A stretch of 64,000 nt of DNA, taken from contig BDIU01000276.1 of the NCBI GenBank assembly GCA_002118135.1, positions 45,143 through 109,142 on the forward strand. Reading direction: 5' to 3'. Positions 1 through 63,214 of this stretch are shown piece by piece. Source of the DNA: Trebouxia sp. TZW2008. Its lineage: Eukaryota > Chlorophyta > Trebouxiophyceae > Trebouxiales > Trebouxiaceae. Below the pieces are notes generated by a model that did not search any database, was not told where the DNA came from, and saw only the letters and a list, made by a program, of their open reading frames with translations. The translations under genes were made by a program, and so were the position numbers. Numbering within the stretch: the stretch's first letter is position 1; each line of letters starts with the position of its first letter.

Positions 1-3000
1 GACATAACACCCTGCACGCAGCATAGCATAGGGGGTTGGTGAACTGAGTTTTGACTTTGGGAATTGGACAGCTGGGACGTGTCATGCAGGTGAATTTCAA
101 GAAGGGGCAGCATGTTCAAAGGTCGGGATTTTACCTTGAGCAAGGGGCATTGTTGGCATCAGACATCAAAGTCAAGTGTGGCCTCGTCAGCATAGGACAT
201 CAACAAACGACAGAAGCATGATCATTGCACCACATCAAAGCCCCCAGTGTGGGTGACAATGGCCAAAGAGATGTTAGCCTCCTGGCTTTGCCCATTATGG
301 CTGCGTTGGGTCCGGCAGAAGAAGATTTGGGGAAAGCAGTAGGCCCCAGACTGTTTTTGGCCATTCGCATGGTTTGCACACCACATGCCAACAATGATGC
401 TGTTGTGCATGACAATGAGCAGGCTTTTGAGACACTGGCGTTATACGGCAAGCAACTTTCAGGTAGGGGCACACCACAGCAAAGCCAAACAGTGATGCCG
501 GTGTAGGTGACAAGGCCAGAGAGATATTGGATTCCTGCCGTTGCAAAGCAGGCCTGTCTGGACAAGAAGGGAGGGTCATGGGGAGGGGGGCCCCTGAGCT
601 GAAATCGGATTGAGGCATTGATGACATTCCACATCAAAGCCCACAGTGATGCCGGTGTGGGTGACACTGATCAGAGAGGTATTGGCCTATTGCCATTGCT
701 CGTCATGGCTGCAGCTGGTCAGCCCAAAAGATCTTGGGGTTTTGGGGGGGGGAGGGTTGCAGGGGGGGCTTTGGATGCAAGGACGCAGATGCTAGACCGA
801 GATCAGATGGAGTCATTGAAGCATACCACATCAAAGCCCACAGTGATGCCAGTGTGAGTGACAATGGCCAGAGAGATGTTAGCCTCCTGTCTCTGCTCAT
901 CATGACTGCATTTGGTCAGCCGGAAGAACTGGTTGACCTCAAAGAAGTGCTTCTCAAGCTGTCTGAGGACGTACACAATCAGATTCTGCTTGCCAACCGC
1001 ATCTGGTCCAAACATCTGCACACATGCAGTCAACAGTCACAGCTGCGCTGACTCTAACGATAGACAGCTGTCCACAGAAGAAGAGCTGTCTGAAGGAGAA
1101 GAAGTGGTTCTCAAGCTGCCTGAGCAGGTACACAGTCAGATTTTGCTTGCCAATTGTCAGAAGGGTAATATCTGGTCCAAACATTTGCACGCCATACAGT
1201 CAGGTTCAGCATGGCATTGCTGCTCTCAGCGCAGCAATCCTTGACAAATGGACAGCCCGGGAGCGGTCTGCAAGCCACAGCAATATATCACCCAAAATCA
1301 GCCTGAAAAAGAAACTCAAGACACAGCGCTCACTCAGGAATGGGTCAGCTCTGGGAACAGTGCTCAGGACACAACAAACAATCAGCAAACAGGCAGCCTA
1401 GGATTGCTGCTGTAAACGCAACTGATCAACTTGCGCCCTGACAATGTAGTTCATCAACTTTTGGCCGCTATGGTCGCAAAAACCCTACCAAAAATCTACA
1501 ATTTTACTTTTTATTAAGGGTGAAACTCACAACTTGTGACTGTTGCTGTGGCTGCAGCAGTAACCAATCAGAGGGTGAGAGGAAGGGATGACATGCACAC
1601 CTGTATTTGGACAGAAGCTGCTTGGTAGGGATGCCGCTGGGTGATGCTTAGTTTTTTCTGAGTCAGTCCATCACCAAGTGATGTTGACTTGTTGTATGTG
1701 AAATTTGGGGAGTGCTGTTGCTTTACCTATATTTGGACTTGGGCTGCTCGGCAGGGATGCCATTGGGTGATGTCTAGATCTCACTGAGTCAGTGCATCAC
1801 TGAGTGATGTTGAGTTGTCTTATGTGCAGTTTGTTGAGTGTTATTGCCTTACCTGTGTTTGGACTTGGGCTGCTCAGTACTGGTGCCACTGCATGAGTTC
1901 TCACTGAGTCAGTCTGTGATTGAGTGATGTTGAGTTGTTGTAGGTGAAGTTTGGGGGGAGTGCCATCGCTTCTCCTGTATTTGGACTTGGGCTGCTGGGT
2001 AGGGGTGCCTTGGGTGATGTCTTGTCACTCCATCATTGAGTGATGCTTTGTGAGATCATGTGAAGTCTGATCAGTGTGAGGAGTCAATTACTGCATTACC
2101 TGTATGTGGACTTGGGCTGCTCGGTAGGGGTGCCATTGGGTGATGTACTGCGCCAGCTGCACATTGTGAATGATGTGTGTCTCCAGCTGCGGGAGCTCCC
2201 TCTGCACAACACAGCAACCCAGATACCTTGCACAAGTTTTGAAAGGCCAACTTGAGCACAAGCTGTGTCTCAAACAATTGCTGGTAGCTGTAATTTTGCA
2301 GGCACTACATGATTGCAGGAACAACAAGATGCAAATGAGCATTAGACAACATCATGTGCCTTGAGACTGTCACAAAACTTTGGAGGCATGAGGGAAGGGG
2401 CGCAGCTGTCAAGAGCAAGTAGAATGGTTTTCAAATATTCGCATACTGGACACGATTACATTCTTGCTGTAAGCCAATGCAAGCAATTAGGAATCAATCC
2501 GCGCATTCTGACTGCAGTGGTACTTTTGAGGTTGGAAAAGTTGTTGTAGACGTTCTTCCTGGTACACAGTATTGTCATACAAACACAGAATATGGTCAGA
2601 ACAGATTGCTGGCAACCAGTGCAGTCGTTACAAAAGAGAAGTCACTGTACCTGAATGCCAGATTCAGAAAAAACAGGGTCATCACTAGTAGGAAACCATC
2701 TCAACCTCATCACTTCCGGAAGCAAGGAACTGCTGTTGATGGAAACCTCTAGCATGGCATGCAAATGGTCATACTGCTCGTAGCCCACTTCCACCTGCTG
2801 CGCTATGCATGCTGGGCAGCCTGTCAGGTTCTCCTTCAAATGCATTGGAAAGTACTGCACCATGCAGACGGTCTCGCACAGCCGCGCTGAGTTCTCATCT
2901 GCATTGCAGCCAAAAGGAAAATGGTTCATCGGTATGATGTGCTTGCTTACTAGTAAGGCTTTATCAATTTGCTGAATGCATGCGGAGCGTACATTCACCT

Positions 3001-11477: not shown

Positions 11478-14400
11478 CTAAGATGAGCATGATAAGCATT
11501 CCACTCCCCATCGGGTTTCCCCATAGGGGGCCGGCTTGGTGTACCTCTCACACCCCTCCTGCTCCTCATATGGGTGTTTCAGTATGCTCATCAACTCATT
11601 CACCTGAAGCACAGCAACAGTTTTGGGTTTTGAAGATTTGAGAAATTGGGACAGAATGCAAGCATTTGACTGCTCCTGAATATGGTCTCTTCAGCGCACT
11701 CAACAACATATTCACCTGAAGCACAGCAAGACTCACTGATCCTGGTCACATACACCAAGGCGACTTCTTTTTATAAGCACTACGTCGCTCTACAATTGCA
11801 ACAAGTGCGAAGAGCGTCGGGCCCAGATCTTGCAAGAAACACAGCACTTTGGAACCAAAGTTGCTGTGCATTGGCACGTGCTTATGAAAGTAGATTGGCA
11901 CACTCATTGCATGCATCATCAAGCATCCAGGATGTGCTATGAAATATGAATTGCAGACACATTGTAACATGTGGCAACAAACTTCAGTTGCATGTGTATG
12001 CCCCAACAAACATCGTTTGCATGAAGCATTGTAAGCCAGGAATTTCAATGAGTCACATCTGGCTCCCTGCCCCAGACTGTAAATTCTATTGATTGATTCA
12101 TTGATTGATTGATTGTAACATGTGGCATCAAACATCAGTAGCATGTGCTTTCTTTACCGCTTCAAATTCGCCTGTTTCTGCCAATGCAATGACGTCTTGC
12201 AAAAGATGGTTGCGAGGTATGTAGCATGGATTGACGCTATTCTGCATCTCTATCCGCTTGTCGTGGTCCATTCCCTCCTCTTTCAGCACAGCCTTGTACT
12301 GCTGAAGCCACTCCTTCCATGCGGTTTGCCTTTCTTCTTCCAATTCCAACCCAGCAGCCTACAGACAAATTCTACATCTTTGCATGACACCACCAAGCGT
12401 GCACAATGCTTTGATCTGCTCTGTCAAATTATCAAAGGACAACACCCAACAATTCTTGCGCTTTCAACCCGATGCATGCATGCATTCTGCTGTTCTGCTG
12501 GTAAGTCTGGTCCAATTAGCGTGCCGACAGACACTCCGCCCAGTTACAAAACAGCCTGCAGACAACCATGCATGCAGCCTTTGTCTGGCAAGGCAAAGTG
12601 CAGCTTTGCACACAAGGATCACACATATGCCCCATGCTAGCAAAGACAGGATATGCATTGCTGAACCCACACCCCCCATGCACTTTGCCTTTTGTCCTCT
12701 AAGTCAAATCCAACAGCCTGTGGAGAAAGACTTCACCCTTACATGACACCAGAGAGAGAGAGAGTAATTTTACATGCTTCAGCCAGCCAACAAGGCTGCT
12801 CGCATGTGCCACACAGTGGCAATGACTATATGCCCAGCATGGCAAACAGCATCACACCAACCATGACAGCACATGTGGGCATGTAGACATGAGTTAAGGC
12901 GAGGTCAGTATGTTGAACCAGCATATTGACATAGCATGTTGCATCAGCATGAGTCAGATGTAATGCTGTGTGCATGATACAATGATATCAGGCTGATATT
13001 AGCATATTATCAGCAGCATCACCTGTTGCAAAGCATAAGGAGACTCTTTGCTGAGAACAAAGGTGGAATCAGCATGTTGCAGCAGCACGAGTCGTCTTGC
13101 CTTTCTCGCTTGAAAAAGCAGGATAGGTCAAAAGTAAAGACATGAGTCAGCACGTGAACACAATGGTATAGGCAGCATTACCTGTTGCAAAGCGTCAGGT
13201 AAGTTTTCGCTGGTGTCATTTGGATCAACGCTCGCTAGACTCCTGAATGTGTTGGTGAAGTCTGCATTGCAACCAACCTAGTCAGTGCTGATTGCCTGTG
13301 CAACAACAGACGATGAGCAGATACATGGATCGTCTGAGCTTCCCAATGGACAACCGTCAGCATACTTGATGATGTCGACACATCTTTAGCCTCCCGTCAG
13401 CACCCTTGCATGTTGCAGCTTGACCAAAATGGCTTTAAGTTGTCAGCAAGCAGACAGTGGAAGTAAGAGGATTCAGTGCGTGCATGGCATGTCTTTGCGC
13501 AGCTCCTCTCTTTTTTGGTTGGCCGCAGGGGACGCGTCTACTCCCAGTAGACAAACAGCAAACCGAAACACCAGCTCCCTTTCTGGTTGTTTCCTGACCT
13601 TTTGAAAGTGTGATGCGCGCCACAAATATGTGTAGATTCAAGAAAAGGCTACACGCATCAAGTCACTTGTAAAGCAAAGCACAGCCACAAATCAATGCTG
13701 TTTTGCTCAAACGAGCAAGTGCTGAATCTCCTGCTTTTTGACTCGATTTGAAGCAATGAGTCCTTGGTACTCCAAAGTGATGTCTTATGATCAGCAAAGC
13801 CTGACATGGTACATGGCAGTGCTTTTGCAGATCCTCGCAGCATGACATACGCACTTCTGGGTCAAGGCAAAGCAATGTGATGTTGTGTGAAATGGCTCAC
13901 CTGCGTTTTCTGTGAACATGTTTTGGTCAATAGATTCAAAGAAAGATTTATTGTTGTCAGATCTTTGCAGCATGGCAAGAACTTTGATGAATGCAAAGTA
14001 AAGCGATGTAATGCAGACTGTCACATACATCTTTGATAGGAACAGGAACTGGAGGCAGTTCATGATACAAATTTTAGGCAAGAAAATGAACATTCATCAT
14101 GTGCAGGTGTGTAGGTGAACTGCTCACCTGTGTTTTTGGTGATCATGTTGGTCAGCAGAATGGCAAAAACATCCTTGGAGTCAAACTCTTTCAGCATGGC
14201 AACAACTGTTCTGACCCACAACACAGTGGTGCAATGCAGTATGAAGCTGCTCACCTGCATTCTCTGTGTACATGTTGGTCAGCAGCTGGACAGAGACACA
14301 ATGTTGACAAACCTTTGCAGAATGGCAAGAACTTGTGAGCTGACACAAATTGATGCAGCGTAAAGTGAAACAGCTCGCCTGCAATTTCAGTGTACATGTT

Positions 14401-17400
14401 GGTCAGCAGCTGAACAGAAACACAATGTTGACAAAACTTTGCAGCATGGCAAGATCTTGTGAACCAACACAAGTTGATGCAGCGTGACATGAGACAGCTC
14501 ACCTGCGTTTTCAGTGTACATGTTGCTTAGCAGCTGGACGGAAAGGTCCTTGTTGTAAGTCTGCAAGCCCATTTTGGCAGCCATGTTTTCTGTGTATAGG
14601 CTATTGAGCTGTTGGTTATATGATGAAAGCATGGCTTCTGCTTCTTCCTGCATTGCATTACTACACTTGTCAGATTCTGGACTGCATGAATTCCTGCAAT
14701 GAACAAGCATTGTATCTTTACGTTTTCGGATTGTGAGATGCGCACAGATGAAATGAACTACATTGAGCTGTTGGTTGTATGATGACAGCATTGCTTCTGC
14801 TTCCTCCTGCATTGCATCTTTACACATTTGCAACCATAGAACACAGATACATGATGTGAACAAGATCGAGCTGAAACCTTACAATGCAGCCATCTTTTCT
14901 GTGTACAGGCCATTGAGCTGTTGATTATATGGTGACAGCATTGCTTCTGCTTCTTCCTGCATTGCATCTTTACACAATTGCAACCATAGAACACACATAC
15001 ATGATGTGAACAAGATCGAGCTGAAACCTTGCAATGAAGCCATCTTTTCTGTGTACAGGCCATTGAGCTGTTGATTCTATGATGACAGCATTGCTTCTGC
15101 TTCTTCCTGCATTGCATTACTACATTTTCAGGTTGTGAACTGCACCCAGACTATTTGAACTATACTGAGTTGATGATTGTATGCTGACAGCGTGTTCATG
15201 TATGTGTGTGTGTATGTGTGTGTGTATGCATGTATGCATGTATGTGTGTGTGTATGTATGTGTGTATGCATGCATGCATGTGTGTAACAGCGTCGCTTCT
15301 GCTTCTTTCTGCATTGCATCATTACATTTTCAGATTGTGAACTGCACACAGACCATCTGAAGTACATTGAGCTGATGTGTATATGATGACACAGCTGCCT
15401 CTGCTCCTTCCTGTATTGCATCAGTACACTTTCAGACTGTGAGCTGCATACATACCATTTGAACTACATTGCACTGATGTGTGTATGATGACAGTACGAT
15501 TCTGCTTCTTCCTGCATTGCATCATTGCAAGCTCAAGTTATATCATGTAGATAGATCGTTAAAGAGCATGCATACAGATAGATCATTTAGAGCATGAAAA
15601 TGATGTAATATGAGATACATGTAGTTCAGCCTGCATCATGCGTGCAGGTGGCTTGACCACAGACACAACCTGATATACAACCTTGCATTCTGTTACACAG
15701 AATCTCAAACCCTAACCATGCAAAACCCTAAATAATCTGCATGTCTCAACAGGAAATTTGAAGCCCTGAAAGCACAACACAGGAGAGTTCTGCCTACCTT
15801 CTCAACCAAGTGTGCAGCACAGAAACTGGTTGCCAAAGCCGTAAGATTCCACTGCACAATCTGCGGCTGATTTCTGAAGTTGTAGCGTCCATTGTACAGG
15901 TCTGTTGTGTTAGGGGTGTAGTCTGGGTCAAAACGCTCCAAGAACCCAAACGGGCCGTAGTCAATTGTTTCCCCAAGGATGCTCATGTTGTCTGTGTTAA
16001 GCACCCCATGGACAAAACCCACTGCCTGCCATTTGGCTGCTAGCTTGGCTGTGCGGGAGGTGACCTCTTGCAATAGGCCAAGGTATGGGTTCTCCTTGCC
16101 TGAAGCAAGTAAGAAGCAGGAAATGAGCATTGGATAGACAATGATTTTTCTGCCAGGCAGCTGATGTTGTCTGTGTTGAGCACGCCATGGACAAAACCCA
16201 CTGCCTGCCATTTGAGTAATAGCTTGGCTGTGCGGGATTTGTCCTGTTGCAACAGGCTGAGGCATGGGCTGTCCTTGCCTACAGCATAAGCAAGAAGCAG
16301 ACATGAACAGTTGTTGGTCAATGATTTCTCCCAGGATGCTCATGTTGTCTGTGTTGAGCATGCTGTGGACAGAACCCACTGCTTGCCATTTGGCTGTTAG
16401 CTTGGCTGTGCGGGGGGTGACTTCTTGTAGTAGGCCAAGATATGGGTTGACTTTGCAAAAGCAACTAAGAAGCAGAAGTGAGCATTACTCCCAGACTGCT
16501 TGCCATTTGGCTACTAACTTGGCTGTTCTAGTAGTGAGCTATTGTGTTCAGCACGAGCACGGGTTTCCTTTGCCTGCAGCAACAGTGAAGCAAACCCAAC
16601 TGCCTGCCACTGTGCTGCTAGCTTGGCCGTACGCAAAATGACTTCTGATGGTAGGCCAAGGTAAGGGGTGCTCATGCCTGTCAGCAACAGGACAGACGAC
16701 GAAGACAGGATGAATGTTAGAGTGTAAGTGCAACACCTGACGTGCCTGAGAATGGCACAGCATGTATCACTAAGTGTCCTGCTCTCTCATGCAGCTGAAT
16801 TTGTTGCTGCTGCTGCATCAGGCCTTCAAGAGTTTGACCTCATACTCTTGAAGAGGCGCCAGCAGCTGAAAGGAGCCACATCTAATCCAGGAGAGTTTGA
16901 AGTCAATTTTCTGTTTCAAGTCCATTTTGGTGCTACTCACCTTGCACTTGTGGATAATGATGCTTGATGACATAGTCTGCCAGCTGCTTCACCAGGTCGT
17001 TCTCTTCCTGAGCTGCAGGCAGCTGGAAGGAGCCAAACCTGATCCAGGAGTGAGCGGCTCGGCACACCACTGCGCCAGGCTCCCATTTGATGTTACCACT
17101 GCAGTGAAACAAACAACATGTTTAGCAAATGCAGCAAAAACATTCCAGCAACGGCTTTTTTGCTCAGGACTGTAGTGCACAACATTGTACCAGGCTCCCA
17201 CTTATGTTGCCGTTGAAGTCAGTCAGTCAGTCAGTCAGTCAGTCAGTCGGTCAGTCAGACAGGCAGTGAGTCAGCGGGTCACTTAGTCAGCCACTCAGTC
17301 AGTCAATCAACAATCCAGCTTGCAGTCCATCAACACGTCTAATGGCCACTGCCTCTGTCAAGAGAATGTGTGGTCATGGCTTACTCAGTGCAACCATTCC

Positions 17401-18766
17401 CTTCATTCCACTGTCAACTGAATGTGTGATGCGCATCACGTCAATTCCACAATATCTGTCAAGTGATTGCTTACTTGTAGAACATGTCCCTCACAACACT
17501 TTGCCCAGTGCCTGCAAGGCTCAAAGCCCTAGAGGTTGGCACCCCCAAATGGTACATAGCTTCACTGCCGATGAACTCCCTGATGGATGACCGCATGACA
17601 GCTCTGCCGTCTGCCATGCGGGAATAAGGAGTTTTGCCGGCACCCTTGAGCTGAAGTTCCCATTTCTGACCGTCTTTGCCTTCAATCTCGCCAAGATTGA
17701 CCACTCGGCCATCACCCAACTGACCTGCAGTTTGCTATGTTCTTGTCAGCTGAAATCCAGATGCTATGCATATAGATGCTGATGTGTTTCATGGGTGGAC
17801 TTTGTCTGTTTTTGCCTTCAATCTCGCCTAGGTTGACCATGCGCTCATCACTCATTTGACCTACATATGGCAATGCAATCATGTGCTGTTTGTGCAGACA
17901 CAAGGGTCATAATTGAGAGGTGCTTGAGCAACACCTTGCAGCAAGCTTACAAGGGCCACATGTGCAAGCTTGGTGTAATATGAGCGGCTGAGCATGTAGT
18001 CAAGCAATAGCACTTGAGGTTGCCACTCATTCCACATTGAGCAAGAAGTGACTGCAGTTGACAAGGACTTGCAAATGAGGCACCCAGACTATGGACGCTG
18101 ACATGCTTCATATATCTGAGCTGCTGGTAGAGTGCAACATCACATAGCTGCCAACATGACCATGAGTAACCCACCAGCCCACGTGCCAAATTGATGGCCG
18201 CCATAGCGCATGGCGTATGTCGTGTTGGAAGCACCAGGAATGGGTGCCTGGCCTGTGAAAACCTCGGCAAATTGCTGTGTGGGGATTTTCTCAAGGTCTA
18301 AGCCAAACTCGTCGGCCATTTCTGCAGAAACGGACACCACATATGGGTCTTCACCATCTGTTGGAGTGGGCTGGACTGGCGACCAGAATGCATTTTTGAC
18401 CTACAGCACAGCATGCACAGCATATGAATTGTTGCAGGATTTGAATTCCTAGCAACGTGAAAAGGTATGAGGCATACCTGACGGAGTCTGTTTTCTTTCT
18501 CTGGGTCTCCTGGCAACTCTTCAGTGTAGCTGCTGGTAATCTTAAGGTCCTACAGTTGTCAAGGCACTGACTCACATATAGCTGACATGTCTCTACTGTT
18601 GCATGCTTTTTTGAGAAGGCGAGTGGGTCACCTCAAGGAGCTTCAACCGAACCGCAGTTGCTGCATTGACATGCATCATAGCTCTGCAACCTATGTCTGT
18701 GGCTCTCGCAGGTGCTCGAAGTCTGTTTGTCAGCAAGCGGCTTGAGGCCAACGCTTGTCTCAACAT
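11478..18766 (-). CDS. SELENOO: Selenoprotein O homologue (SelO/YdiU pseudokinase AMPylase), Cys form
   Basis: Ten exons close phase throughout: 18632-18766, 18478-18549, 18175-18400, 17475-17724, 16941-17098, 15798-16099, 14503-14647, 13182-13261, 12158-12358, 11478-11603, giving 564 aa. SelO transfers AMP from ATP to Ser/Thr/Tyr of protein substrates and is mitochondrial in eukaryotes. Family landmarks are in order: [32 protein letters not shown] (about 170-180), [25 protein letters not shown] with the catalytic Asp at 317, DYGPFGF with the metal Asp at 327, [10 protein letters not shown], and [11 protein letters not shown]. The C terminus is CLSCSS: Cys stands three from the end where many animal forms have selenocysteine. 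The start at 18766 gives [18 protein letters not shown], an amphipathic presequence; in-frame ATGs at 18835 and 18895 are possible. Several introns carry decayed exon copies. Confidence 0.93.
11685..11735 (-). repeat. Copy of the 5' edge of SelO exon 10
   Basis: Minus strand repeats the acceptor GTGCTTCAG and then [12 protein letters not shown], compared with [12 protein letters not shown] in the true last exon at 11478-11603. It loses similarity after about 40 bases. Confidence 0.8.
12093..12117. repeat. (GATT)n microsatellite
   Basis: Short tetranucleotide run in the intron between SelO exons 9 and 10. Confidence 0.8.
12690..12755 (-). repeat. Copy of the acceptor edge of SelO exon 9
   Basis: The sequence shares the order caaatcCAACAGCCTgt, ttc-ac-ctt and CATGACACCA with the acceptor region of the exon at 12158-12358 and its upstream intron. 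A second pair in the same area (11968-11998 against 12116-12150) repeats the intron just downstream of that exon. Confidence 0.6.
13890..14435 (-). repeat. Array of copies of the 3' edge of SelO exon 7
   Basis: Segments near 13895-13930, 14120-14160, 14255-14290 and 14375-14415 carry variants of the exon end (minus: [10 protein letters not shown], then a GTGAG donor). All are downstream of exon 7 (14503-14647). Donor dinucleotides are mostly intact, and spacing is about 115-225 bp. Confidence 0.85.
14755..15530 (-). repeat. Array of copies of the 5' edge of SelO exon 7
   Basis: At least six copies (near 14757-14815, 14906-14970, 15055-15118, 15285-15315, 15375-15420, 15490-15525) repeat the acceptor TGCAATGCAG and the coding words for [15 protein letters not shown]. 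Two units near 14880-15060 are almost identical to each other, so duplication is recent or still active. Between them lies a TG/ATGT-rich tract at about 15195-15285. Confidence 0.88.
15195..15286. repeat. TG/ATGT-rich microsatellite
   Basis: Runs of TGTGTG, TATG and GCATGCATG inside the exon-7 copy array of SelO. Confidence 0.9.
16140..16710 (-). repeat. Four decayed copies of the 5' half of SelO exon 6
   Basis: Copies near 16150-16290, 16330-16460, 16495-16570 and 16570-16690 repeat parts of the acceptor, SRTAKLxxKWQAVGF and [10 protein letters not shown]. The best copies keep the catalytic motif words VLNTDN but have deletions and frame breaks. The true exon (15798-16099) alone continues into DYGPFGF and the donor. 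Confidence 0.88.
16815..16895 (-). repeat. Copy of the middle of SelO exon 5
   Basis: Minus strand reads [16 protein letters not shown] against [16 protein letters not shown] in the true exon at 16941-17098. A second truncated copy of the exon start (GGGAGCCTGGTAC) lies near 17170-17205 on the other side. Confidence 0.8.
17214..17310. repeat. (CAGT)n microsatellite
   Basis: Long imperfect tetranucleotide run in the SelO intron between exons 4 and 5. Confidence 0.9.
17795..17870 (-). repeat. Copy of the 5' edge of SelO exon 4
   Basis: Minus strand has an acceptor (ATATGTAG) and then [19 protein letters not shown], a copy of [19 protein letters not shown] at the start of the exon at 17475-17724. 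Similarity stops after about 60 bases. Confidence 0.88.
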
Positions 18767-19015
18767 CAACTGCGGAGGCGCGGACGGCTGGCGAGTAGGA
18801 TGCAATTTGCAGGCAGCAGGCAGACTATATTGCATGCTTCTAGATCCTGTGTTGACGTGAATGTCAGCGATGAATGGCAAAGTGTTGACTTGCATGCATG
18901 CACAGCAGACGAAACAGTGACGGAGGGCGTTTCATCTTACGGAGCGACGCGCCGCAAGCAACACCCTCATTGCAGCTGCTCCAAGCATCGTGACTTGCGC
19001 TCTGCACGGCTCGAT

Positions 19016-42529: not shown

Positions 42530-42656
42530 AGAACTCGAGTGGTGCCTGAGCACACGTCTTCAATTCCAATGCAATGCAGATCTAACGCTGTCAGAGCGTA
42601 CGAGTGCCTGTGCTGTGGTGTCACAAGCAAAGCGATGACGACGGTGGAGCCCTGGC

Positions 42657-43058: not shown

Positions 43059-43245
43059 ACCTGAGGCCTATGAGCTGCCAGGCTGTAACGTCCTATGCTA
43101 CTAGTAGTGTGTATTACACGACAGCAGCGTAGTACGTATTTCTAGCTTGCAATGTTCAGCATATTCACAGGGACATAAAGGAATGCCATGGTCTATCCAA
43201 GGCCTTTCAAACAAGCCTAAAGGCATCTAATCTTTCTTTTCATGA

Positions 43246-46200
43246 TCACAGGCTGGTTCTGAATGGCAGGGGCAAAGCCTCAAAGAAGCCCTGTACCGTT
43301 TGGTTGATTCCTTTGGCAGCAACGACATGCGGTTCATCGGCCTCCACAGGGATAATTTGTGCAGGCACACCATGTGACAAACTGTGCACAACATGATTTG
43401 CTGCAACTAAGCCTGTGATATATGCTCTTTCCTGTGAAAGTCCGTTTGCACCATGATCGAGCCCTTTTACCCAGTCTCCAGCCATGAAAACATTCCCCAA
43501 TGAAGTTGTTTGCAATGGGCGAGAGGAATATGATCCAGGGCTGAAATGGGTCACTGCGTCAGAGAAGCGCAAGACTGCGCTGTCTACCACCTGTAGGAAC
43601 AAACACAGACACTGAATAAAATTGCTTCCCACATGAGACGCAACTCATATCATAAGAAACAGTTTCTGAATGTGACAAAGCGACTGCACACAGACTGTTT
43701 GAACCTCACAATGCTTTCCCCTCCATTGTTTCTACTGTTTTCGCATATGGCAAGTTTGGAGCAATGCCGTTAGAGAAAGCCAAAGCTTGGGATTGCAAAG
43801 CTGCTCAAACAAAAAGACAACAAAAGTGTACGCCATTAAGCATCTTGACAGGAGCCTTTGGCATGAGTGGCAGCCCAGGTGTGACAGATTATGCTCAGCT
43901 CTGTTGAGCGTGCGAGTACCAGTCAGACACATGCTTAAGTGCATTGGTGCATAGCCGCCAGTGCTCCATCAGATAAGCTCAGACACTTGTGTGTGTCTAC
44001 ACAAGGCCGTTTTTGGAATAATGCTCTTTAAGTGCACAACAACACAGCACATTGCACCAGGCTGCTCATAGCTTCATCTGAATATACACTCTCTCACCTT
44101 TGCAGTCTTGAAAGTGGGCTCACAAGTGTCAATATTCCTCTTGACCCTGCCAATGATCTCCGCATCTGAGAGAGGCATCAGCGTGTTTGAGTGATAGAAA
44201 TCAGCTGCTATGACCGTGCCTGGCTCTGTCTTGTACTCATCCTGCAGCAATGCAACATTTGGTGAGCAAAATAAGACAGGATGTTGCTGTCGAATGTGCT
44301 GATGATCTCTGCATCTGAGAGAGGCATTATGACTGTGCCTGGCTCTGTCTTGTATTCATCCTGTAGCAATGCAAATCTTGGTGAGAAACTTTGACTATGA
44401 AACTGACAATGTACACTTTTAGCTGTGACAGACGTGAGATAATACTGAAATATGAAGTTGTTTTTGTCGGCCCAGCAAGTTTCTGCTCAAGATGTGCAAG
44501 TCATTATGTTTTTGCAAGGTAATCGACTCTGAGCTGGCCTGAAAGTTTGAGAATTTGAAGCAGGTTTGGCACATCAGCAAATCAAGATATGGAGGGCATG
44601 ATGCATACATACAGTCATAGGCTCTCATGATGCTTTGGTAAGCTCACAAGATTGCAGCTGACCTGAAGCTCAGACAAATTGAAATAAGTGCCGCCAACAC
44701 CAGGCTCAAATCCCGCCAAAACATTGGCTGGAAACCTAGTGGGTAGGGTTTGGTCCAACCATATCCGAGTTGCAATAACATCTAACCCTTTCAAGTTCAT
44801 GATGTTACGGAACTCTGGCCTGGTCCCCAGAGCTGAACAATTGGTGATCAGCTTCTTCATGCCTACACAGCAGATCCAAATCTTGACAATGCAGCTGTTG
44901 TGAAATGATGAAAAGCTTCTGCACACCTACAAATCAGATCCACTGCTGCACAGTGCACATCTTGCAAGGGCGTGCTGTGATGTCTGCATTGCTAAACGCA
45001 TTAGAACAGACAAGCTGGCAGTCGTACGGTCAGCAACAATCAGGTGCTTTTCCTACAGTGTGACTGCATGCCCAATTTTGTGTTTGGCTGAGCTGCATTG
45101 CAGCCATTGTAAGCACAACATGCACTGCAACACGGTATGAAGCAGAGAGATCATTTCCTCCCAGTTCATGCCTACATGACTTGTGATTGCAGCCTCTTGT
45201 TGGAGGCGTCAAAACCAGCACAATATGCAATGCACGCATGTCCAGTTAGATATATAGATTACTATTCCTACCATTGTTATTACTGTTGTTGCTGTTATAA
45301 TTGTGATTAATGTTAGGATTATTATCATTGTTATCATCATCATCCTTTATGATTTTATAGGTGCTGTCATCACCTGTTATTCCCACAGCAAAGATGACAG
45401 CATCAGCAGCGTAATAAGTCTTCTTCCCCTCCCTGGTGTTTGCATACACTCCATTTGCTGTTCCGCTTGCCTCGTCAACAGTCACATCAGTCACCAACTG
45501 CCCCCCAACAATGTTGCCTCCTTGCTTCTTGATTAGCTCCACCAATGGGGAGAAGATACGCTCACTTACGGAGCCCTTACACCAGCATACGTCGAAGTCG
45601 TACTGATGCGCCAGAGCTGCACAGTAACACTACACAACGCATCATCAGTCATTCATTCAGAGCAGCCTTCTCTTTCAAACAAAATACAGTCGCATGCAGA
45701 GATTGGCAACACATGCTTGAACAGCGCACGCTCAAGTTCAATTGATACAAGCACTCAAGGCCCAATTCATTTCTGATTGTCGTCCAAGCTGCTTTCTCTG
45801 ACACTGCAGACAATGTTCCATGAGGCATACTCCCAGCTATGTCAAGTCTCTCAAGGCACATAGTGCAGGGTCAGGTAGGTAGATGTCTTGGCCAACGTCA
45901 CGATGAAAGTGATAGGTCAACATGCAATGCTTAGTGCAAGATCACCATAGCTCATGTTGTGATCTTGTCAGATCACACGAACCTTGTTGCCTGCAGCGCA
46001 ACCTTCAACATTCTGCAGTGATGATGCATGTACCAATCTTTGTGCAATTCACGGATGCTGCTGTAGAGTGATGGATCAGATCAGCAGTGCACTCACCATA
46101 GAAGCACAGGGCAATAACCCATGACTGTTGCTGACAGCGTTTCTGCAGGGAAAAGGACGCCCGATAGCAGCAAGGCAAGCAGCATGACAAGCGTTGCGCT

Positions 46201-49200: not shown

Positions 49201-50947
49201 GCTCAGGTCAGGTAATGCAAAACCAGTGGGGACCTAAAACACTAGTCAGACAGATTGCTACACAGACCAAGTCAGCGCAAATCACCTGAACAAGGGAAAG
49301 GTGTGGATGAATTGCCCAACTAGGGTAGGGTACTGCTCTTTCTTGGAGAAGACAGGGGCTTCCGTTGTCAAGCCCCTAGGGCTCCAGAAACCACTGGTTG
49401 TCCACTCTGTGAAGGGCCAAGGAATGCCCAACTCCCGGATCAATGCAAATATGTTGTGATACTGCAGCAAGCATAATGACTTGGCAAGCATGTTGTCAGA
49501 GGGTTTGAGAGTGTTGGATCATAAGGAACCGAGGACAAATTCAAAACACAACAGCAGATGGTGTTTGCTCTTTTCTTGCTTTCACATGGCAACCTCACAA
49601 GACTTTTGCAAGTATAGACTGTGGCAAAAATGCTCTCTGTGCCAATAGAGCTCAAGATCCCGCTGGTGGTCCAGCCTGTGAAGGGCCAAGGAATATCCAT
49701 CTCCCACATCAACGCAAATATGTTGTGATACTATAGCAAATGTCACGTTTTTTCCAATTTTGGAACATCATGTCCTCACGAAGCCACCGGATGCTCAACT
49801 CTCAGATCAAAGGAATATGCGGTGATACTGCAGCAAGCTGAGCCTTCAGCGGATACGCTACAGGACTGCAGCAAGCAGTGCTGCGCAATGATGTGCGCAT
49901 GCTCCGCAAGCATTAAGCGGGGATTAGCCACTAACCATAAGCTTTCAAAGACAAATGTCTGCAGCTATTTGCCCCTGGCGTGATTGAAATCTTTCATCTG
50001 ACAACAAGCAACAGATCAAATCAAACAATCAATCAAGGTAGGCAATGAGCTTTGTTACAAAGTGATTTACCTGGCATCCACAGCCCTGACCCCTGCTTCA
50101 ATGGCAAATCTGAACCTGATACGAACAAAAGACCAGACAAAAGACGCATACCTGATACCAGAAGCCCTTGACCCCTGCTTCGACAGCCCTGCCCTGCTCA
50201 GTGCGCCATCCAGCTGACAAGCCCCCAGGATTGGGTGAGCCATCTAGCAGGGTTACAGAATAACCCTGCTGAGACAGATGCTTTGCTGCTCCAAAACCTG
50301 CCAAAAAGAGTGATGTGATAGAGCATCTCAAGCTGAGGGACACAAGCTTTGCCGTTTCCAAACTTGCATGAGGCAGGGTACTTGTCTCATCAGGCATTGG
50401 TAAAAGAGCTGTCAAGCAAGGTGACACAATAGCCTTGCTGAGACAGATGCTGCGCTGCTCCAAAGCCTGCAAAGGTCTGTTTTAAGGCAGTTTTAAAGCA
50501 TAGAGCCTTTCACTAAGCAATTCAGGCAGATTGATGGCAGGCTGAATGCACAACGAGATGGGTGCATCCTTGCCCAGTGAGACAGCGTTTGAACAAGACG
50601 CGTGAGTAAGGCATTAGCTTGCCTGCCCAGCCCCCTCCGACTATGACGACCCGCTTGCCAGGCTCGCCGGTGTCTGCAGCTTCACTGTCTGACTTGCGCT
50701 TCTGCTTCGAGTCGCCATGAGCTTTGGGAGGCGTGGAGGAGGGTTTGAGTGCTGTCGACGAGGAGTTTGATCGGGATTTTGTGTTGGCAGCTGATGTTGA
50801 GTTCACCTGAGCTTGCGCGCAAATACGGTGGGCACAGGAATATGTCGGCAGACTGGATTTTTGCCATGTACGGTGTCGAGATGCTGTAAATGGTCTGGCC
50901 GTCCTGAGGTGCCAGGCATTCAGGGGCGCAAGTGCTTGGCACGGCAT
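43246..50947 (-). CDS. Plastid-type FAD amine oxidase (phytoene-desaturase superfamily)
   Basis: Nine exons close phase: 50623-50947, 50152-50297, 49286-49461, 48628-48750, 46407-46525, 45374-45616, 44663-44862, 44098-44241, 43246-43590, giving 606 aa. Residues 1-95 are a Ser/Thr/Arg/Lys-rich plastid-like transit region. The dinucleotide-binding motif VVIVGGGWAGFGAAKHL starts near residue 99, followed by GYSVTLLDGSPNPGGL and AVEAGVKGFWYQ. Further landmarks are PWPFTEWTTSGFWSP, RPLLLVGLFAP, the WCKGSVSERIFSPLVE helix, and the C-terminal FAD motif NVFMAGDWVKGLDHGANGLS. The superfamily includes carotenoid desaturases/isomerases and amine oxidases of cyanobacterial descent; the substrate is unknown. 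Intron 1 has a GC donor (GGCAG|GCAAGC). Intron 4 (46526-48627, 2.1 kb, between exons 4 and 5) holds an antisense intein-like gene. It is divergent from HMGS across 539 bp. Confidence 0.85.
44285..44370 (-). repeat. Copy of amine-oxidase exon 8 edge with internal deletion
   Basis: Minus strand has an acceptor and then DEYKTEPGTVI fused directly to MPLSDAEII; the residues between (AADFYHSNTL) are deleted relative to the true exon at 44098-44241. Confidence 0.9.
46075..46335 (-). repeat. Copies of the 3' part of amine-oxidase exon 5
   Basis: A copy near 46090-46170 carries LSATVM-like words and a donor (TTCTATG|GTGAG). A second near 46270-46335 reads LLVxLVGALSAPAEKLS. The true exon (46407-46525) reads LLLVGLFAPAEELSAAVM. 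Confidence 0.72.
47003..47296 (+). CDS. Small ORF upstream of and overlapping the intein-like ORF
   Basis: ATG at 47003 opens a 97-residue frame (MASQTIENPKGYKNIL..., ending VYDTIQAE). Its TGA overlaps the ATG of the next ORF as ATGA at 47293-47296. No family recognised. Composition is coding-like and free of introns. Either this is a separate viral-style overlapping gene, or the two ORFs are one ancestral ORF split by a frameshift. Confidence 0.4.
   Translation: MASQTIENPKGYKNILACLHYTMVYSVDSVMKAIKTRSCICAIDEVIHATNPDGDSIDKVLYILEKALTQAHGAPHSTTWQEWQQHNLPVYDTIQAE
47293..48348 (+). CDS. Intein-like Hint + LAGLIDADG homing-endonuclease protein, freestanding
   Basis: 351 aa, no introns. Residues 17-32 form a Cys/His cluster (CCTRLCGIGSKTCNLH). 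Residues 56-150 follow the order of an intein N-terminal splicing domain: GFPGSMLVNMPNEEI (block A-like), a central variable part, then IEIVLEDKSTFICGEDQPIL (block B-like) and KAANLQQGDLLV. Two LAGLIDADG-type helices follow: LVIGSLFGRGD (167-177) and ARAIAVWYMDSG (253-264), each with the acidic residue near the end. Against active inteins, the nucleophile Cys/Ser at block A appears to be Gly, the block-B His is Gln (EDQP), and no C-terminal His-Asn is seen, so self-splicing should be dead. DNA cleavage may remain possible. It lies antisense within intron 4 of the amine oxidase gene. Origin from a large DNA virus or a degenerate mobile intein is inferred, not shown. Confidence 0.65.
   Translation: MIARGLHQKESPSGQKCCTRLCGIGSKTCNLHKDNVRFGLETFSLTMSARSEILDGFPGSMLVNMPNEEILTLAELCSAREMSQAKQNITVYESAKFDSSPDWNFVKAPQRNNLIEIVLEDKSTFICGEDQPILSMHGSQKAANLQQGDLLVTKQGLQALNDDQWQLVIGSLFGRGDVKPKGKFGALLQVYHQMNQKDYCEWKAQVMQTELRQVPGKGNYGADRIGFVTLPFACSEPFVARHVPDWMISKLDARAIAVWYMDSGALSKDSLSAILPLGNHDEDSHQSALTDRHHCSISLEEAKYRNYCRGEGMSAIHAGNSTPLPRFYQRNISLNCNVVQIVMCPDEATAD
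48840..49060 (-). repeat. Decayed copy near amine-oxidase exon 4
   Basis: At about 48845-48875 the minus strand has GACAATCCTTTTGGCTGACAGGT, matching GACCATTCCCTTGGCTGACAGGT at the start of the true exon (48628-48750). The rest of the interval, including an open minus frame near 48960-49040, has no recognisable parent. Confidence 0.6.
49635..49740 (-). repeat. Copy of the 5' half of amine-oxidase exon 3
   Basis: Minus strand reads YHNIFALMWEMDIPWPFTGWTT, against YHNIFALIRELGIPWPFTEWTT in the true exon at 49286-49461, then diverges. A further acceptor-edge fragment appears near 49810-49835. Confidence 0.9.
50415..50480 (-). repeat. Copy of the 5' edge of amine-oxidase exon 2
   Basis: Minus strand has an acceptor (TTTGCAG) and then GFGAAQHLSQQGYCVTLLD, against GFGAAKHLSQQGYSVTLLD in the true exon at 50152-50297. 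Confidence 0.92.
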
Positions 50948-57682: not shown

Positions 57683-57934
57683 ATGTCTGCAGCGAGTCTT
57701 GCAAGGAGCTCTGGAAATGCTAAGCGCCAGCCGGTCCCTAAAAGCATCTCGCAGAGTAAGCGCTCCAAACGAGACACCCGTGCAGCTGCAAAGCCCCAAG
57801 GCAAACTTGTCAAAGCGCCTCAGCCCAAAGACTACCTTTCCCCGGAAGATACGCCAGTCGTTCCCCTGGTCATCTTGGTCGGCAGTCTCGTGTCGTACAG
57901 TGTCAAGGTCTTGCTCGACATTTCGCAGAAGTAG
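57683..57934 (+). CDS. Hypothetical small basic protein with C-terminal membrane segment
   Basis: 83-residue frame from an ATG. Lys/Arg/Ser-rich N-terminal half (AKRQPVPKSISQSKRSKRD), then LSPEDTPVVPLVILVGSL, a single likely transmembrane segment near the C terminus, suggesting a tail-anchored protein. No family recognised. An overlapping longer frame (57666-58286) with LLGLLFDCACIAVAALF is an alternative reading, and a splice between the two cannot be excluded. Confidence 0.35.
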   Translation: MSAASLARSSGNAKRQPVPKSISQSKRSKRDTRAAAKPQGKLVKAPQPKDYLSPEDTPVVPLVILVGSLVSYSVKVLLDISQK

Positions 57935-59019: not shown

Positions 59020-62000
59020 ATGGGGTCTCTTCATCGGCAGAACACGTTGTCGAAGCAGACCAGCGCTGTGTTCAACATGACGCTGGATGAACTGCAAGCA
59101 TCGATGGGCAGTGGGAGACCTTTTGGCTCCATGAACATGGTATTGCAGCCTGTCGTGAACAAGCTGAACGCTTTCGACAACAAAGTTCCCTGGCTGTCAG
59201 CGCGATTTCGCCACCACGTGCAGGACGAGTTCCTACAGACCGTCTGGGACAAAGATCCGGGACTGCTGAACACGCAACTTTCGACAGAGCCGATGTTTGA
59301 CGGAGGGCTGTTTTCCCAAAACAGCCTAGACAAGACAAATTTGAGTTTGCCCCAAGATTACAGGTCTGTGCATGCTGTACGCAACCCCCAGCAGTCCCCA
59401 TCAGTGACCTGCTGTGTTCTCAGCGTGCAAGGCCAGCACTTACAGCAATTTGTTGACTGAAGCTAGATGCTCTGCAGTGGCAAGACTGTTGACGAGGTCT
59501 GGAATGCCATCAAAGCCAACCAGACTCAACCAAACTATGAGCAGCCCTTCACAGTGGGGCACCTGCTGGAAGGCATTGGGGTAGTCTCTGACAGTCCTCA
59601 TGATGTCCAACCAGCACAGCTGCCATTCCTACAGCAGTTTGGCCAATCGCAGCCTGAAGTGCGGCAATCACAGTTGCAGCAAGCGCGCTTGCCAGACCCT
59701 CCTAAGCTCCAGATCCATTCGCAGGGCATGACTCCCAGCTTCAGCCCTGCTCAGTACGCAGCACAGCAGCATCAGCTGAATAGCGGCCTCCCAATGCAGC
59801 AGCAGCAGCATCAGCATCAGCAAGCGCCGCCTCAGCAGTTCTCCCAGCAGCAGTACATTCACCACGCTCAGCATCAGCATCCCCTGCAGCAGCAGCCGCA
59901 CCAGCAGCAGCAACAGCAGTTCCAGCAGCAGCTGCCTGCGCATCAACATGCACAGCAGCAGCAGCAACAGCAGTCTGGTCAGTCGTCCATGCAACAGTCA
60001 CAGGGAACAGTGCGAGGGAACAGGTCGCCTGCCAAGGCTCGCCCTGGAGGCAAGACGTCTCCTGACAAGGCACAGCCTTCTGATGGCGTTGCTGTGAACA
60101 TCAGGGCAAGCACTCAGTACCCTCCTGCTCAGCAGGTATACTTGCCACAACAGCTTTTTACATACATTCACCTTCTTGCATGCACGCATATCTGCATGCA
60201 AGCTACAAGCAAAGATCTTTTTGGCGGCAAAATGTCTCCTGACACTGCACAGCCTTCTGGTGGTCTTGCTGCGAACATCACAGCAAGCACTCAGTTTCCT
60301 CAACAAGTATGTCTGCCACTGCAGCTTCTTGCATGCATCACATGCAGGATGCATGCTACAAGCAAGGCTTGCACTGGGGGCAAGGCCTCCCCATGGTAAG
60401 GCACAGCCTTGTGGTGACATTGCTGTGAACATCATGCAAGCACTTGGGCCCTCAGCAGGTACACCTTTCACTTCAGCATCTTGCATGCTTCATCTTCTTG
60501 CATTGCAAAGATGGCATACATCCATCTTCACGCATGCTAGTTGTTGCCACACAAGACTATCTCTCAGGCGCTGCACCTGTTTCACAGTGTCTTAGATGCT
60601 GTTTGTTTTGAGTCTTGCTTGTATTACTCAATGTGACTTGCCACAAGATGTTGTCGTGGCACAGACAGCACCAGCAGGTTGAGCATGCTTTAGCATGCTC
60701 AGATGCAGAGCAGCAGAAGCATTTGTTCCAGACGTGTGCCTTCCTTGCCTGTGACTCCCTTGACATGTCTCAGCTTGCAGCAATGGGCATGCAGCGTGAA
60801 TATGGTCACAACAGCATGTCAGCTGTGGGAGGCTGCAAGCCATTGGTCTGCTTGAAACAAAAGTCAGAAGCAGCATGCTTTCCTAAAGTTGACCGTATCA
60901 GAACATGCTGTAGATCTGTCACATCACAGACGGAACACACGCCACAATGTCTTCAATGCTGCTCATGTTCGCAGGGCCTAGAGAAAGCCATTAGCCTGCG
61001 CGCCCTGTGGCCAGTTCAACTAGTATGATTCAGATGCTCTTCGTGTGTGGCAGTCACGTACAGTGATTAGACTGTTGAAATGCAGGTAAAGTCAGGCTCA
61101 GCAGCAATGCAGTCACAGCCCGCCTGACCTAGGGGCAGGCCCCTCCCCCACAGCAGCCAATCTCATGCGTTTACCATGATTATACAACCCACAGCAACCT
61201 CGTGTAGTTACTCTTGTGTTCCGTTGTCAGGGCTCTGCAGTGCAGGTGCAGGCTGCCCGCCCTTCAATTAGCTTATCTCATCATGCCAGAAGAAATGCAA
61301 TCTTGAGCCCCCGTGCAGAATTCCTGACATCATGTACTATTCTGCTGCACACATGTGATCATGTCTTTTCTTGCCGCAGGCGTTGTCGGGCCCAGCGGCA
61401 ATGCAGTCCCAAGCTGCAAGGCCAGGGGCAGGGCCCTCCCCCACAGCGGGCCCCATGCCCCCTTCCCCTCCCTCAGAGTCACACAGCAGACGGCAAGATA
61501 GCAGCCATACGGTGAGCGCTTCATGCCTCTTTGCCTTGCTCAGAAGCAATAATTCTATCCCATTGAATGATTGTTGTGTTGCGTGGCTGACAACAATGCA
61601 TCAGTCCCAGTGAGCGCTCTCCCACCTTCAAAGTCACACAGCACGCAGCAACATAGCAGCCATACAGTGAGCACAGGAGAGTACCAAACCTGCAAACCCA
61701 TGTCATATTCACCTGGCACCTTTCCTGATCAACAGAATCAACATGACAACCTGTCAGAGCCAAGCTAGTCTTTGGCATGTCGATGTCACTTTTTATCATT
61801 GAACATGTGTGTGCAAGTTTTTCTTGAAAACAGTTTCAAAGGTAGACTCATGGTTATGCAGCTTGGTTTACACTGTCATGCAGAGGGACGAGGGAGCTGG
61901 CCCTTCACCAACGCCTGCAGCAACAATAGATGATGATTGAGGGGAATGCAAAAGTCATTGGCACGTTCAGTGTATGGATGTTATCACTTGTGCATGCATC

Positions 62001-63214
62001 TCCAGTCACAAATGTTATGCTGCCATGTGGAGGAGTTGCTGCCACTGCTTCCAGCAACGGCAGCAAATTCTCATTGCAGGGAAGCCAAAGTCAGTCTCAT
62101 GGCCTACCGATTGCATCAAAATCACATACAGAGCTTGAGATATAACTGCTGTGCTGTTCTGCAGAGGGGTGGAGGTGCTAGCCCTTCACCAGCACCTTCA
62201 GCAGCAGCAACTGATGATGATCGAGGGGAGACCAAGAGGGCCCGCCAGCGCAAGCGCAAAGACCCTGAAGTGGTTGACGAGCGCACTGCCAGGATGCAGA
62301 AGCGCATGGTGAGTCTTGTGTCAGCCCTTGTCTGTTATACTGACTGCAGGAGAGGCTGACTGGATGAATATCGTACAATTTCACTGCCTGGGTGCACAAG
62401 CGTATGGTGAGCTGTACATGACATCTGCCCACATGCGCTTGACTGATGCCTTGACTGCTAGAGTGTCATCAGATGGTTTACTTGCTTACTTGCTTGTCAG
62501 CTCAGCTGTTTATCTAATTTGTCCACATTTGCGTGAACGCTTAATGCAGGAGATTTTGGTTGCCGCACTCACTCACTCACTTGATTTTTCACCCACTCCC
62601 TCACTCGCTCAAGTTTTCACCCACTCCCTCCCTCGCTCGCTCACTCATTGACTCCCTCACTCACTCACTCATTCATTCACTCACTCACTCACCCACTCAC
62701 TCACCCGTTCACTCAGAGAGCCATGAGCCCATCTACAATGGTGCATGAGGCTACATGCACAACTGTAGCTGCAAATGCACACTGCATAGGGTGTGGTCAG
62801 GCCATGCTTTGTCAATTTCTGTCACAGCTGTGATTCTAGCCTGATGTTGCTCAACTTTGACCCTTGCCTGACATGTGACAAGCTGTATGGTCTCCGCAAC
62901 TGCTCTCTGCTGGAGAACTGGTAGTATCAACTTGCTCTGACACATCTGGTGCTTTTGTCAAAAGCAAACGAGCATACACACAATGACCGTGACGCTATGC
63001 ATCTGTTGTGTAGGTCAAGAATCGCGAGAGTGCTGCTAGGTCGCGGCAGCGCAAGCAGGAGTACACAGCCACGCTTGAGGATCAGGTGAACCAGCTGAAA
63101 GAGCAGAACCGACTGCTGCTGCAGAGAGTGATTGATGCGTGTCCACCTCCAGAGGACAAACACTCAGGCATCGTTGATGGCGAGCCCTTACGACGCACAC
63201 GATCTGGTGTGTGA
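59020..63214 (+). CDS. Group A (ABI5/ABF-like) bZIP transcription factor
   Basis: Six exons close phase: 59020-59139, 59224-59363, 59478-60135, 61380-61511, 62165-62308, 63014-63214, giving 464 aa. In land plants group A bZIPs bind ABRE/G-box elements (ACGTG) and carry out abscisic-acid responses after SnRK2 phosphorylation. Conserved blocks appear in the land-plant order. C1-like HRQNTLSKQ contains an R-x-x-T SnRK-type site, then MTLDELQASMGSGRPFGSMNM. C2-like DEFLQTVW follows, then C3-like GKTVDEVWNAI near residue 87. A Gln/His-rich region spans about 180-260. The basic region (VKNRESAARSRQRKQEY, from residue 399) has the N-x7-R signature (N401, R409), followed by a short leucine zipper (LEDQVNQLKEQNRLLL). 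Regulation by ABA in this organism is inference. Introns 3 and 4 contain exon-edge copies. Confidence 0.88.
60200..60460 (+). repeat. Two copies of the 3' edge of bZIP exon 3
   Basis: Near 60215-60309 and 60360-60459, each repeats GGCGGCAAAA-GTCTCCTGACA, GCACAGCCTT, GTGAACAT and ends CAG/CAA-GTA. The true exon ends at 60135. Offsets are about 170 and 150 bp. Confidence 0.88.
61085..61155 (+). repeat. Copy of the middle of bZIP exon 4
   Basis: Shares GCAATGCAGTC-CA, GGGGCAGG-CCCTCCCCCACAGC with the true exon at 61380-61511, upstream of it by about 295 bp. Confidence 0.8.
61605..61675 (+). repeat. Copy of the 3' edge of bZIP exon 4
   Basis: Repeats CTCCC-CCTTC, AGTCACACAGCA, CAA-ATAGCAGCCATAC and the GTGAGC donor about 160 bp after the true donor. 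Confidence 0.88.
61878..61940 (+). repeat. Copy of the 5' edge of bZIP exon 5
   Basis: Acceptor tgcag, AGGG-GAGGGAGCTGGCCCTTCACCA, GATGATGATTGAGGGGA: matches the start of the true exon at 62165 with substitutions and a stop. A small 3'-edge copy (AAGCGTATGGTGAGC) is at about 62398-62412. Confidence 0.87.
62560..62720. repeat. (ACTC)n minisatellite-like tract
   Basis: About 160 bp of CACTCACTC with CCCTCCCTCGCT variants, in bZIP intron 5. Confidence 0.92.

Follow-up and report, generated by a model that had tools for sequence, protein, structure and literature searches.

Introduction

Tandem exon duplication with mutually exclusive exons involves whole exons, which have both splice sites and are under coding constraint, and introner elements are sequences that are similar between unrelated genes. 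Duplication inside genes is said to be frequent, as Gao and Lynch reportedly concluded in 2009 for internal gene duplication. In this work we describe exon-edge arrays, i.e., copies of the nearest end of an exon lying in the adjacent intron, in a stretch of 64,000 nucleotides from the green alga Trebouxia sp. TZW2008, hereafter called the window, and in other parts of the same genome. The arrays resemble tandem exon duplication in that extra exon-like sequence is found in introns; unlike there, the copies are mostly partial and unconstrained. With introner elements they have in common that repeated sequence shapes the intron content, whereas the copies of the alga match almost only the adjacent exon. 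When exons were used as queries, 5 of 202 non-self matches fell in other loci, and 46 of the 47 repeat pairs of the window were within 1 kb.

Intron gain by tandem duplication has been described for the RdRp gene of potato (PMC4974935) and for pairs of near introns in Drosophila (PMC2891723). In the potato gene, according to the part of the paper that treats it, an upstream intron-exon piece was duplicated together with a putative branch site, tract and 3' splice site (PMC4974935). As far as these parts of the two sources go, both systems share with the alga a local direct duplication across intron-exon structure; they differ in comprising few cases, with a new spliced intron, while here apparently inert arrays lie within existing introns and concern over one quarter of the exons. 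Small tandem duplications, introduced as the commonest short (<100 bp) insertions in the human genome, are known to arise when breaks are filled in and the ends are then joined (PMC8355091). Such duplications from staggered breaks, in the sections of that source considered here, are short segments in direct tandem as in the alga; these sections draw no link to exon edges. Their defining trait is dependence on end joining and on Pol alpha-primase/CST. No title describing exon-edge arrays was found among the literature matches listed, a coverage that subscription papers mostly fall outside of.

The analyses below make it probable that tandem duplications of about 95-210 bp have recurred in this genome. 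They appear to strike exon-bearing DNA several-fold over pure intron and would be kept only where splicing can skip the copy.

Materials and Methods

The analysed genome comprises 68.5 Mb in 527 contigs, and the window corresponds to bases 45143-109142 of its contig. The DNA read amounted to 274 kb, consisting of the window, 18 sampled stretches (one of them on the window's own contig) and four neighbours. Two stretches, L003 (C27:30001-36927) and L006 (C135:30001-40000), held dense repeats, both direct and inverted, and are perhaps mobile elements; the guanine-plus-cytosine (GC) content of L003 was low, 0.407. Both were removed from the statistics as repeat-rich, leaving 257 kb (the window and 16 sampled regions). 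Genes were called by a self-trained gene finder, which gave 325 exons in 38 gene models with the donor CAG/GTRAG and the acceptor TGCAG/G. The edges of exons in the SelO gene were checked by tblastn with proteins of relatives, including Trebouxia sp. C0009 (P0124).

Repeat pairs were collected with our own aligner at lags of 20-1000 bp, with a pair score cut-off that was reached 0.5 times per shuffled replicate (two replicates). It recorded 435 direct pairs in 274 kb, of which 32 were dropped due to low complexity and 109 more due to their location in L003 or L006. A sharp lower limit of the lag near 105 bp was at least partly an artefact, since gapped BLAST extension seems to fuse short lags into the main diagonal; lags down to about 20 bp were recovered by our own aligner. 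For the exon-query search, 296 exons were compared with the 257 kb, and the rest of the genome was covered by one exon-bearing stretch alone. Statistics of decay were pooled from 87 exon-copy pairs.

Results

Local and direct copies at exon edges

All of the 47 repeat pairs obtained when the window was compared with itself (expectation value, E, 1e-6) were direct. A looser self-comparison (E 1e-3, 4-kb pieces, L003 and L006 excluded) gave 266 direct versus 25 inverted pairs within 1 kb. In the exon-query search 190 direct and no inverted matches were found within 1 kb, while 12 were farther away, 7 at 1-5 kb besides the 5 in other loci. Matches to distant exons were accordingly far less frequent than those to adjacent ones, as expected from the original prediction, which was made from the window alone. 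A direct copy within 1 kb was present for 82 of the 296 exons, and one exon-bearing stretch searched against the whole 68.5-Mb genome had no match besides itself. In the window we counted 41 non-redundant non-exonic copies beside 23 predicted exons, where more than 50 copies over about 25 exons had been predicted. Exon-edge copies were also found beyond the window, in most sampled regions and several deep at some edges, and arrays anchored on exons made up 16% of the intron sequence in the sample. The core of the prediction, local direct copies at exon edges, is thereby extended to other parts of the genome, while some of its specifics were not confirmed.

The copies are direct and close to their source, which supports an origin by local tandem duplication. 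That such duplication was repeated and left one full exon, as predicted, is supported by the self-comparison, the exon queries and the protein matches in the SelO and CLC genes given below. Over the pooled exon part, copy and exon are about 18% different, and insertions and deletions (indels) are numerous. Differences of this kind are not created by mis-assembly, and the chance that the copies are an assembly artefact is practically negligible.

A genome-wide scan for kinesin domains, in which 150 of 157 matches were used, gave 23 close pairs with model ranges overlapping by at least 10 positions; short overlaps of this kind may be due to alignment overrun. Nine pairs from the same matches overlapped by at least 23 positions, on C33, C79, C157, C184, C193, and C275. 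The separate copies on C33, C79, and C157 each carry the exon part facing them. Where the match of an exon runs on into the copy, the direction follows trivially from the order of exons, and one pair on C79 overlaps itself and has no direction. Among three loci with Mito_carr matches, L024 had an upstream copy at an exon 5' edge, itself a weak Pfam match, L025 had only a short-period repeat away from exons, and L026 had repeats, one of which (lag 204) overlapped a Pfam match.

Decay of the copies

Mismatches between exon and copy at codon positions 1, 2, and 3 were 308/1933, 253/1943, and 501/1923, respectively (0.159, 0.130, and 0.261). The proportion of about 1:1:2 is as expected of a free copy compared with an exon that changes mainly at third positions. 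Most indels, 64 of 70, were not multiples of three and broke the frame, and the pattern of decay was the same in contiguous (21) and gapped (66) pairs. The copies thus decay neutrally, without protein-coding constraint.

One could suppose that the copies are functional, either as alternative or poison exons or as selected splice decoys. The splice dinucleotide, AG or GT, was indeed retained in 58 of 80 copies, and some copies are exon-like enough to be called by the gene finder. However, identity alone predicts a retention of 71%, so that splice sites persist at the neutral expectation, and neither the indels nor the codon positions bear traces of constraint. A whole exon with both splice sites was present in 4 of 106 copies (pairs of predicted exons are outside this count), frame and codon constraint were lacking in the copies, with all codon positions changing, and the SelO copies are absent from the proteins of three relatives. 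A functional role is highly improbable in view of these results. They give no support to the supply of alternative exons that had been predicted; of the predicted decoy splice sites it holds by sequence that most copies keep AG or GT, at the rate expected of neutral decay.

Concentration on exons

Arrays with a smallest lag of 95-210 bp were distributed as 67 touching a predicted exon, 6 in introns only and 5 outside gene models. Above 210 bp the numbers were 10, 3, and 5. Homology over the full period was found for 28 of the 67 exon arrays and for 21 of the 87 exon-copy pairs, the others being decayed or gapped; the corresponding full-period arrays were 1 in intron only and 2 outside gene models.

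An excess of this kind could be only apparent if tandem duplication was uniform over the genome and the conserved exon side kept pairs recognisable for longer. We simulated tandem duplications uniform across these genes, with unit sizes taken from the exon-edge lags, copies and introns decaying neutrally and exons protected. Out of 2247 tolerated units at edges and 3753 in introns, 1029 and 1213, respectively, were detected, a ratio of 0.85. The detection bias itself was real in the simulation, reaching 4.9:1 for exon-edge versus intron-only pairs at an age K of 0.25-0.30 and more at older ages, and by the full-period measure, 28 of 67, most exon arrays are old. Since exon-edge pairs remain visible longer, a bound was computed by linear programming over mixtures of nine age bins with K up to 0.45. 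The minimum intron-only count compatible with the observed exon arrays was 22-44, against the 6 seen (Poisson P 5e-5 to 1e-12), and among full-period arrays the proportion was 28:1. Uniform duplication is therefore an unlikely explanation, and the predicted concentration on exon edges is above chance, 67:6 compared with a simulated value of about 0.85:1.

In the Pfam-supported genes of the window, 20 exon versus 3 intron-only arrays were found at the same lags (p 7e-5). Two arrays counted as intron-only, 34645-34926 and 50237-50473, are exon edges by homology; they are two of the 6 in the sample and two of the 3 in the window. At exon scores of 0, 10, 13, and 16, the number of exon arrays out of 73 was 67, 64, 59, and 49. 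The exon made up 37-98% of the unit in 20 full-period pairs, while a quarter of the simulated units had less than 30% (Kolmogorov-Smirnov p 0.02). Short lags of 20-95 bp were seen in 15 of 28 intron-only minimal-lag pairs versus 2 of 59 exon/non-exon pairs.

Touched and untouched exons did not differ in length (medians 158 and 145 bp, p 0.25), and the length of introns with and without arrays (medians 459 and 377) was not significantly different either (p 0.11). The GC content was slightly higher in touched exons, 0.546 versus 0.522 (p 2e-4). The share of touched exons was uneven among 27 predicted genes of at least four exons (chi-square 75.0, 26 degrees of freedom, p 1e-6) and correlated with the coding score per base (Spearman 0.49, p 0.01); in one gene model, in L012, none of the 18 exons was touched. 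Judged by the comparison with simulated duplications, exons look like duplication hot spots.

Direction and spacing

The sample held 106 non-redundant copies, of which 65 contained the facing edge only, 4 the far edge only and 4 both edges, while 33 stopped inside the exon. Copies of 5' edges upstream and of 3' edges downstream had been predicted as a strict rule, which is thus nearly but not strictly followed. A tandem unit across a 5' edge leaves its stray copy upstream and a unit across a 3' edge leaves it downstream. When an intron end (I) and an exon start (E1) are duplicated, the result is [I E1][I E1]E2, in which the remainder of the exon (E2) continues directly from the second copy and the first one is left as the stray copy upstream. 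The 65:4 geometry is therefore a signature of tandem duplication and not of a splice-directed process, and no special mechanism has to be invoked for the fan.

Among 59 minimal-lag pairs of exon and non-exon, 50 had lags of 96-205 bp, where a spacing of about 90-190 bp had been predicted, with 2 shorter (69 and 76) and 7 longer ones as exceptions. Both kinds of edges were touched about equally, 30 at 5' and 29 at 3' ends. The predicted centring of duplication on splice sites is thus not demonstrated; this equality and the large exon part of the full-period units fit a focus on exons better. Nor was the supposed shortening and damage with distance confirmed: at 18 edges with at least two copies, the farthest one was shorter at 12 (Wilcoxon p 0.09) and less identical at 11 (p 0.26).

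Two different predicted exons were linked by 13 of the 132 minimal-lag pairs. Such pairs are what the Rogers model predicts, in which introns are gained as exonic segments are duplicated in tandem. Some of the 13 may involve miscalled copies, as in SelO, and in close-ups the copies come with an acceptor or donor stretch of their own and share their intron with unrelated sequence, which leaves the model very unlikely.

Arrays in the genes of the window

Pfam matches support genes for SelO, an RRM protein, a CLC channel with CBS domain, an amine-oxidase-like protein, HMG-CoA synthase and a bZIP protein. The features are listed in Table 1.

Table 1. Exons and exon-edge copies located in the window.
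Feature	Position	Strand	Evidence
True SelO exon, residues 251-351	15798..16100	-	tblastn with P0124, 77% identity; Pfam SelO
Decayed copy 1 of the 5' edge of exon 15798..16100, upstream, residues 251-294	16148..16279	-	tblastn; DNA array 15958-16680, lag 176
Decayed copy 2 of the same edge, residues 252-297	16317..16454	-	tblastn; 85% DNA identity
Decayed copy 3 of the same edge, residues 251-285	16574..16678	-	tblastn
Upstream copy of the 5' edge of SelO exon 17475-17728	17802..17867	-	tblastn, residues 113-134; lag 136
Two upstream copies (14876-14959, 15026-15109) of the 5' edge of SelO exon 14516-14650	14876..15109	-	tblastn
Upstream copy of the 5' edge of SelO exon 12149-12358	12643..12720	-	E 0.026 with P0122, 0.14 with P0124
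True CLC exon, C0005 residues 711-772, 95% identity	38088..38271	+	protein alignment
Three downstream copies of the 3' edge of CLC exon 38088-38271, lags 164, 277, 391	38317..38720	+	DNA array; tblastn
Upstream copy of the 5' edge of CLC exon 36850-36983	36682..36729	+	relative's protein; lag 161
Downstream copy of the 3' edge of CLC exon 36850-36983	37178..37276	+	P0002 residues 664-696; array 36928-37245, lag 127
Upstream copy of the 5' edge of CLC exon 36119-36305	35717..35806	+	relative's protein; array 35744-36229
Upstream copy of the 5' edge of CLC exon 30766-30907	30553..30615	+	relative's protein; lag 200
Upstream copy of the 5' edge of CLC exon 29909-30166	29548..29610	+	relative's protein
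Downstream copy of the 3' edge of CLC exon 34589-~34701	34822..34926	+	DNA pair; relative's protein reaches 34701
Downstream copies of the 3' end of RRM-protein gene exon 22448-22708	22767..23094	+	DNA pairs; Pfam
Array of upstream copies running into the 5' edge of RRM-gene exon 23840-23959	23314..23899	+	DNA pairs
Array across the 3' edge of predicted exon 26070-26228, lag 184	25827..26177	-	DNA pairs
Upstream copy of the 5' edge of exon 44098-44241, amine-oxidase-like gene	44281..44388	-	close-up; Pfam Amino_oxidase
Upstream copy of the 5' edge of the exon covering 50237-50304	50406..50473	-	DNA pair; Pfam NAD_binding_8
Array of downstream copies of the 3' edge of predicted exon 59478-60135; gene model ends in bZIP domain	60033..60576	+	DNA pairs
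Copies flanking predicted exon 61380-61511: upstream 61082-61154, downstream 61599-61672	61082..61672	+	DNA pairs
Upstream copy of the 5' edge of predicted exon 62165-62308	61873..61954	+	DNA pairs

The three stacked SelO copies begin at residue 251 or 252, where their exon begins, and the third was miscalled as an exon, 16519-16677, by the gene finder. Of the pair upstream of exon 14516-14650, which lies in a wider array, 13828-15569, the copy nearer to the exon had E 0.001 with P0124 and the other one matched P0122 only, weakly (E 0.49). Inside this array, at 14761-15117, a 150-bp unit is repeated 2.4 times with 95% match, a recent expansion of an apparent copy of a copy. The copy upstream of exon 12149-12358 also forms a DNA pair at lag 359 (E 4e-14).

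The closest relatives of the CLC protein among the matches listed were Trebouxia sp. C0005 (89% identity) and C0010 (88%), followed by Myrmecia bisecta (63%). All 18 predicted CLC exons aligned to the protein of C0010, edge to edge with the exception of two flaws, a missed piece of 17 residues and a poor last exon (55 of 61 residues, 45% identity). Two of the copies behind exon 38088-38271, 38489-38548 and 38604-38663, end at residue 772 as the exon does (E 1e-4 and 0.012, respectively, with P0002). Exon 30766-30907 has a second 5'-edge copy at a lag of about 100, and the exon from 34589 was cut too early, at 34647, by the gene finder.

The RRM-protein gene with exons 22448-22708 and 23840-23959 appears U2AF-like when inspected by eye, and the small gene at 25421-27374 matched no Pfam family. 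The copy of exon 44098-44241 has an internal deletion of about 30 bp and reads as a 149-bp tandem unit with a later deletion. The exon covering 50237-50304 was overlooked by the gene finder; the NAD_binding_8 match starts where its copied part starts. The HMG-CoA synthase gene had no exon-anchored array in our own array table of the window.

Two long frames were observed besides. A frame of 356 amino acids at 47278-48348 (+) contains a LAGLIDADG_2 endonuclease domain (E 5e-8). It runs opposite to the amine-oxidase-like gene and apparently sits between exons of the latter, where it would be a homing-type gene in a nuclear intron; a sequence search gave no solved relative. The other one, 478 amino acids at 41123-42559 (-), had a single relative in the protein search (72% identity) and is touched by no array. 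In the joined stretch 12260-13960 of C189 (L022 and L008), a single predicted exon contains divergent internal repeats of about 129 bp (43 codons), which are possibly an in-frame relative of the same duplication process.

Discussion

The arrays are probably explained by recurrent tandem duplication of exon-bearing segments, followed by a filter of selection and then by neutral decay. A unit wholly within an exon would alter the protein and be selected out, while a unit across one edge would be tolerated, as the intact exon retains a complete splice site. The duplications themselves might come from fill-in of staggered breaks and subsequent end joining, and exons might be favoured if breaks or nicks are commoner there, perhaps through nucleosomes on the GC-richer exons.

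Several points weigh against recurrent duplication focused on exons. The lag range of 95-210 bp was picked after the exon-edge lags had been seen; exons are not in excess among the arrays of less than 95 bp (10 exon, 9 intron-only and 6 outside), and the 121 arrays of all lags divide into 87 touching a predicted exon, 18 intron-only and 16 outside gene models. The calls of exons rest mostly on the self-trained gene finder, which made errors. Its models are good yet not clean, some in the window fuse neighbouring genes, and in L026 no gene was called despite five Pfam matches. In SelO, 3 of 10 predicted exons (16519-16677, 14883-14956, and 14128-14205) have no counterpart in the proteins of three relatives; the first two rematch exon 5' edges and are therefore copies. 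With exon scores of at least 16 the excess is weaker but persists, 49 arrays on such exons versus 24 not (p 2e-4). Finally, the aligned part was shorter than the lag in 66 of the 87 exon-copy pairs, and among these the 49 pairs whose gap contained hardly any exon or none had no visible homology between the gap and its expected partner (median z 0.2; above z 3 in 2 of 49).

The last point could also be read in another way, namely that a patch of the exon edge was copied to a place some 150 bp away with no strictly tandem unit, or that conversion from the exon refreshed old copies. Many aligned patches do reach only 0-35 bp beyond the exon at lags of 115-205 bp, with a gap of no visible homology. 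However, the absence of inverted exon copies within 1 kb speaks against a templated process, as do the 21 pairs that are contiguous over the full period and have the same neutral pattern. The close-up of exon 44098-44241 gave a 149-bp tandem unit, and short coverage was reproduced by the simulation at K 0.2 and above. We regard templated insertion or conversion as distinctly unlikely. The idea that the intron half of the units was never homologous is partly, not wholly, explained away by the simulation and the close-ups; age and large indels account for some of the gapped pairs, not for all.

If recurrent duplication of exon-bearing DNA is accepted, it is conceivable, though we advance it tentatively and with some doubt, that a process of this lineage preferentially tandem-duplicates nucleosome-sized exon DNA, so that introns, as only units across an edge survive, would be a neutral fossil record of duplication aimed at exons, in which each array is dated by its decay relative to its own exon. 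For annotation the arrays are a warning, since partial copies are miscalled as exons by the gene finder and appear as extra matches in domain scans. If exons truly are duplication hot spots, the genome would offer many naturally dated tests of the mechanism of tandem duplication, of the neglect of duplicate sites by splicing and of intron growth. In that case the introns of the alga would also record a mutation bias towards coding DNA that is normally erased by selection.

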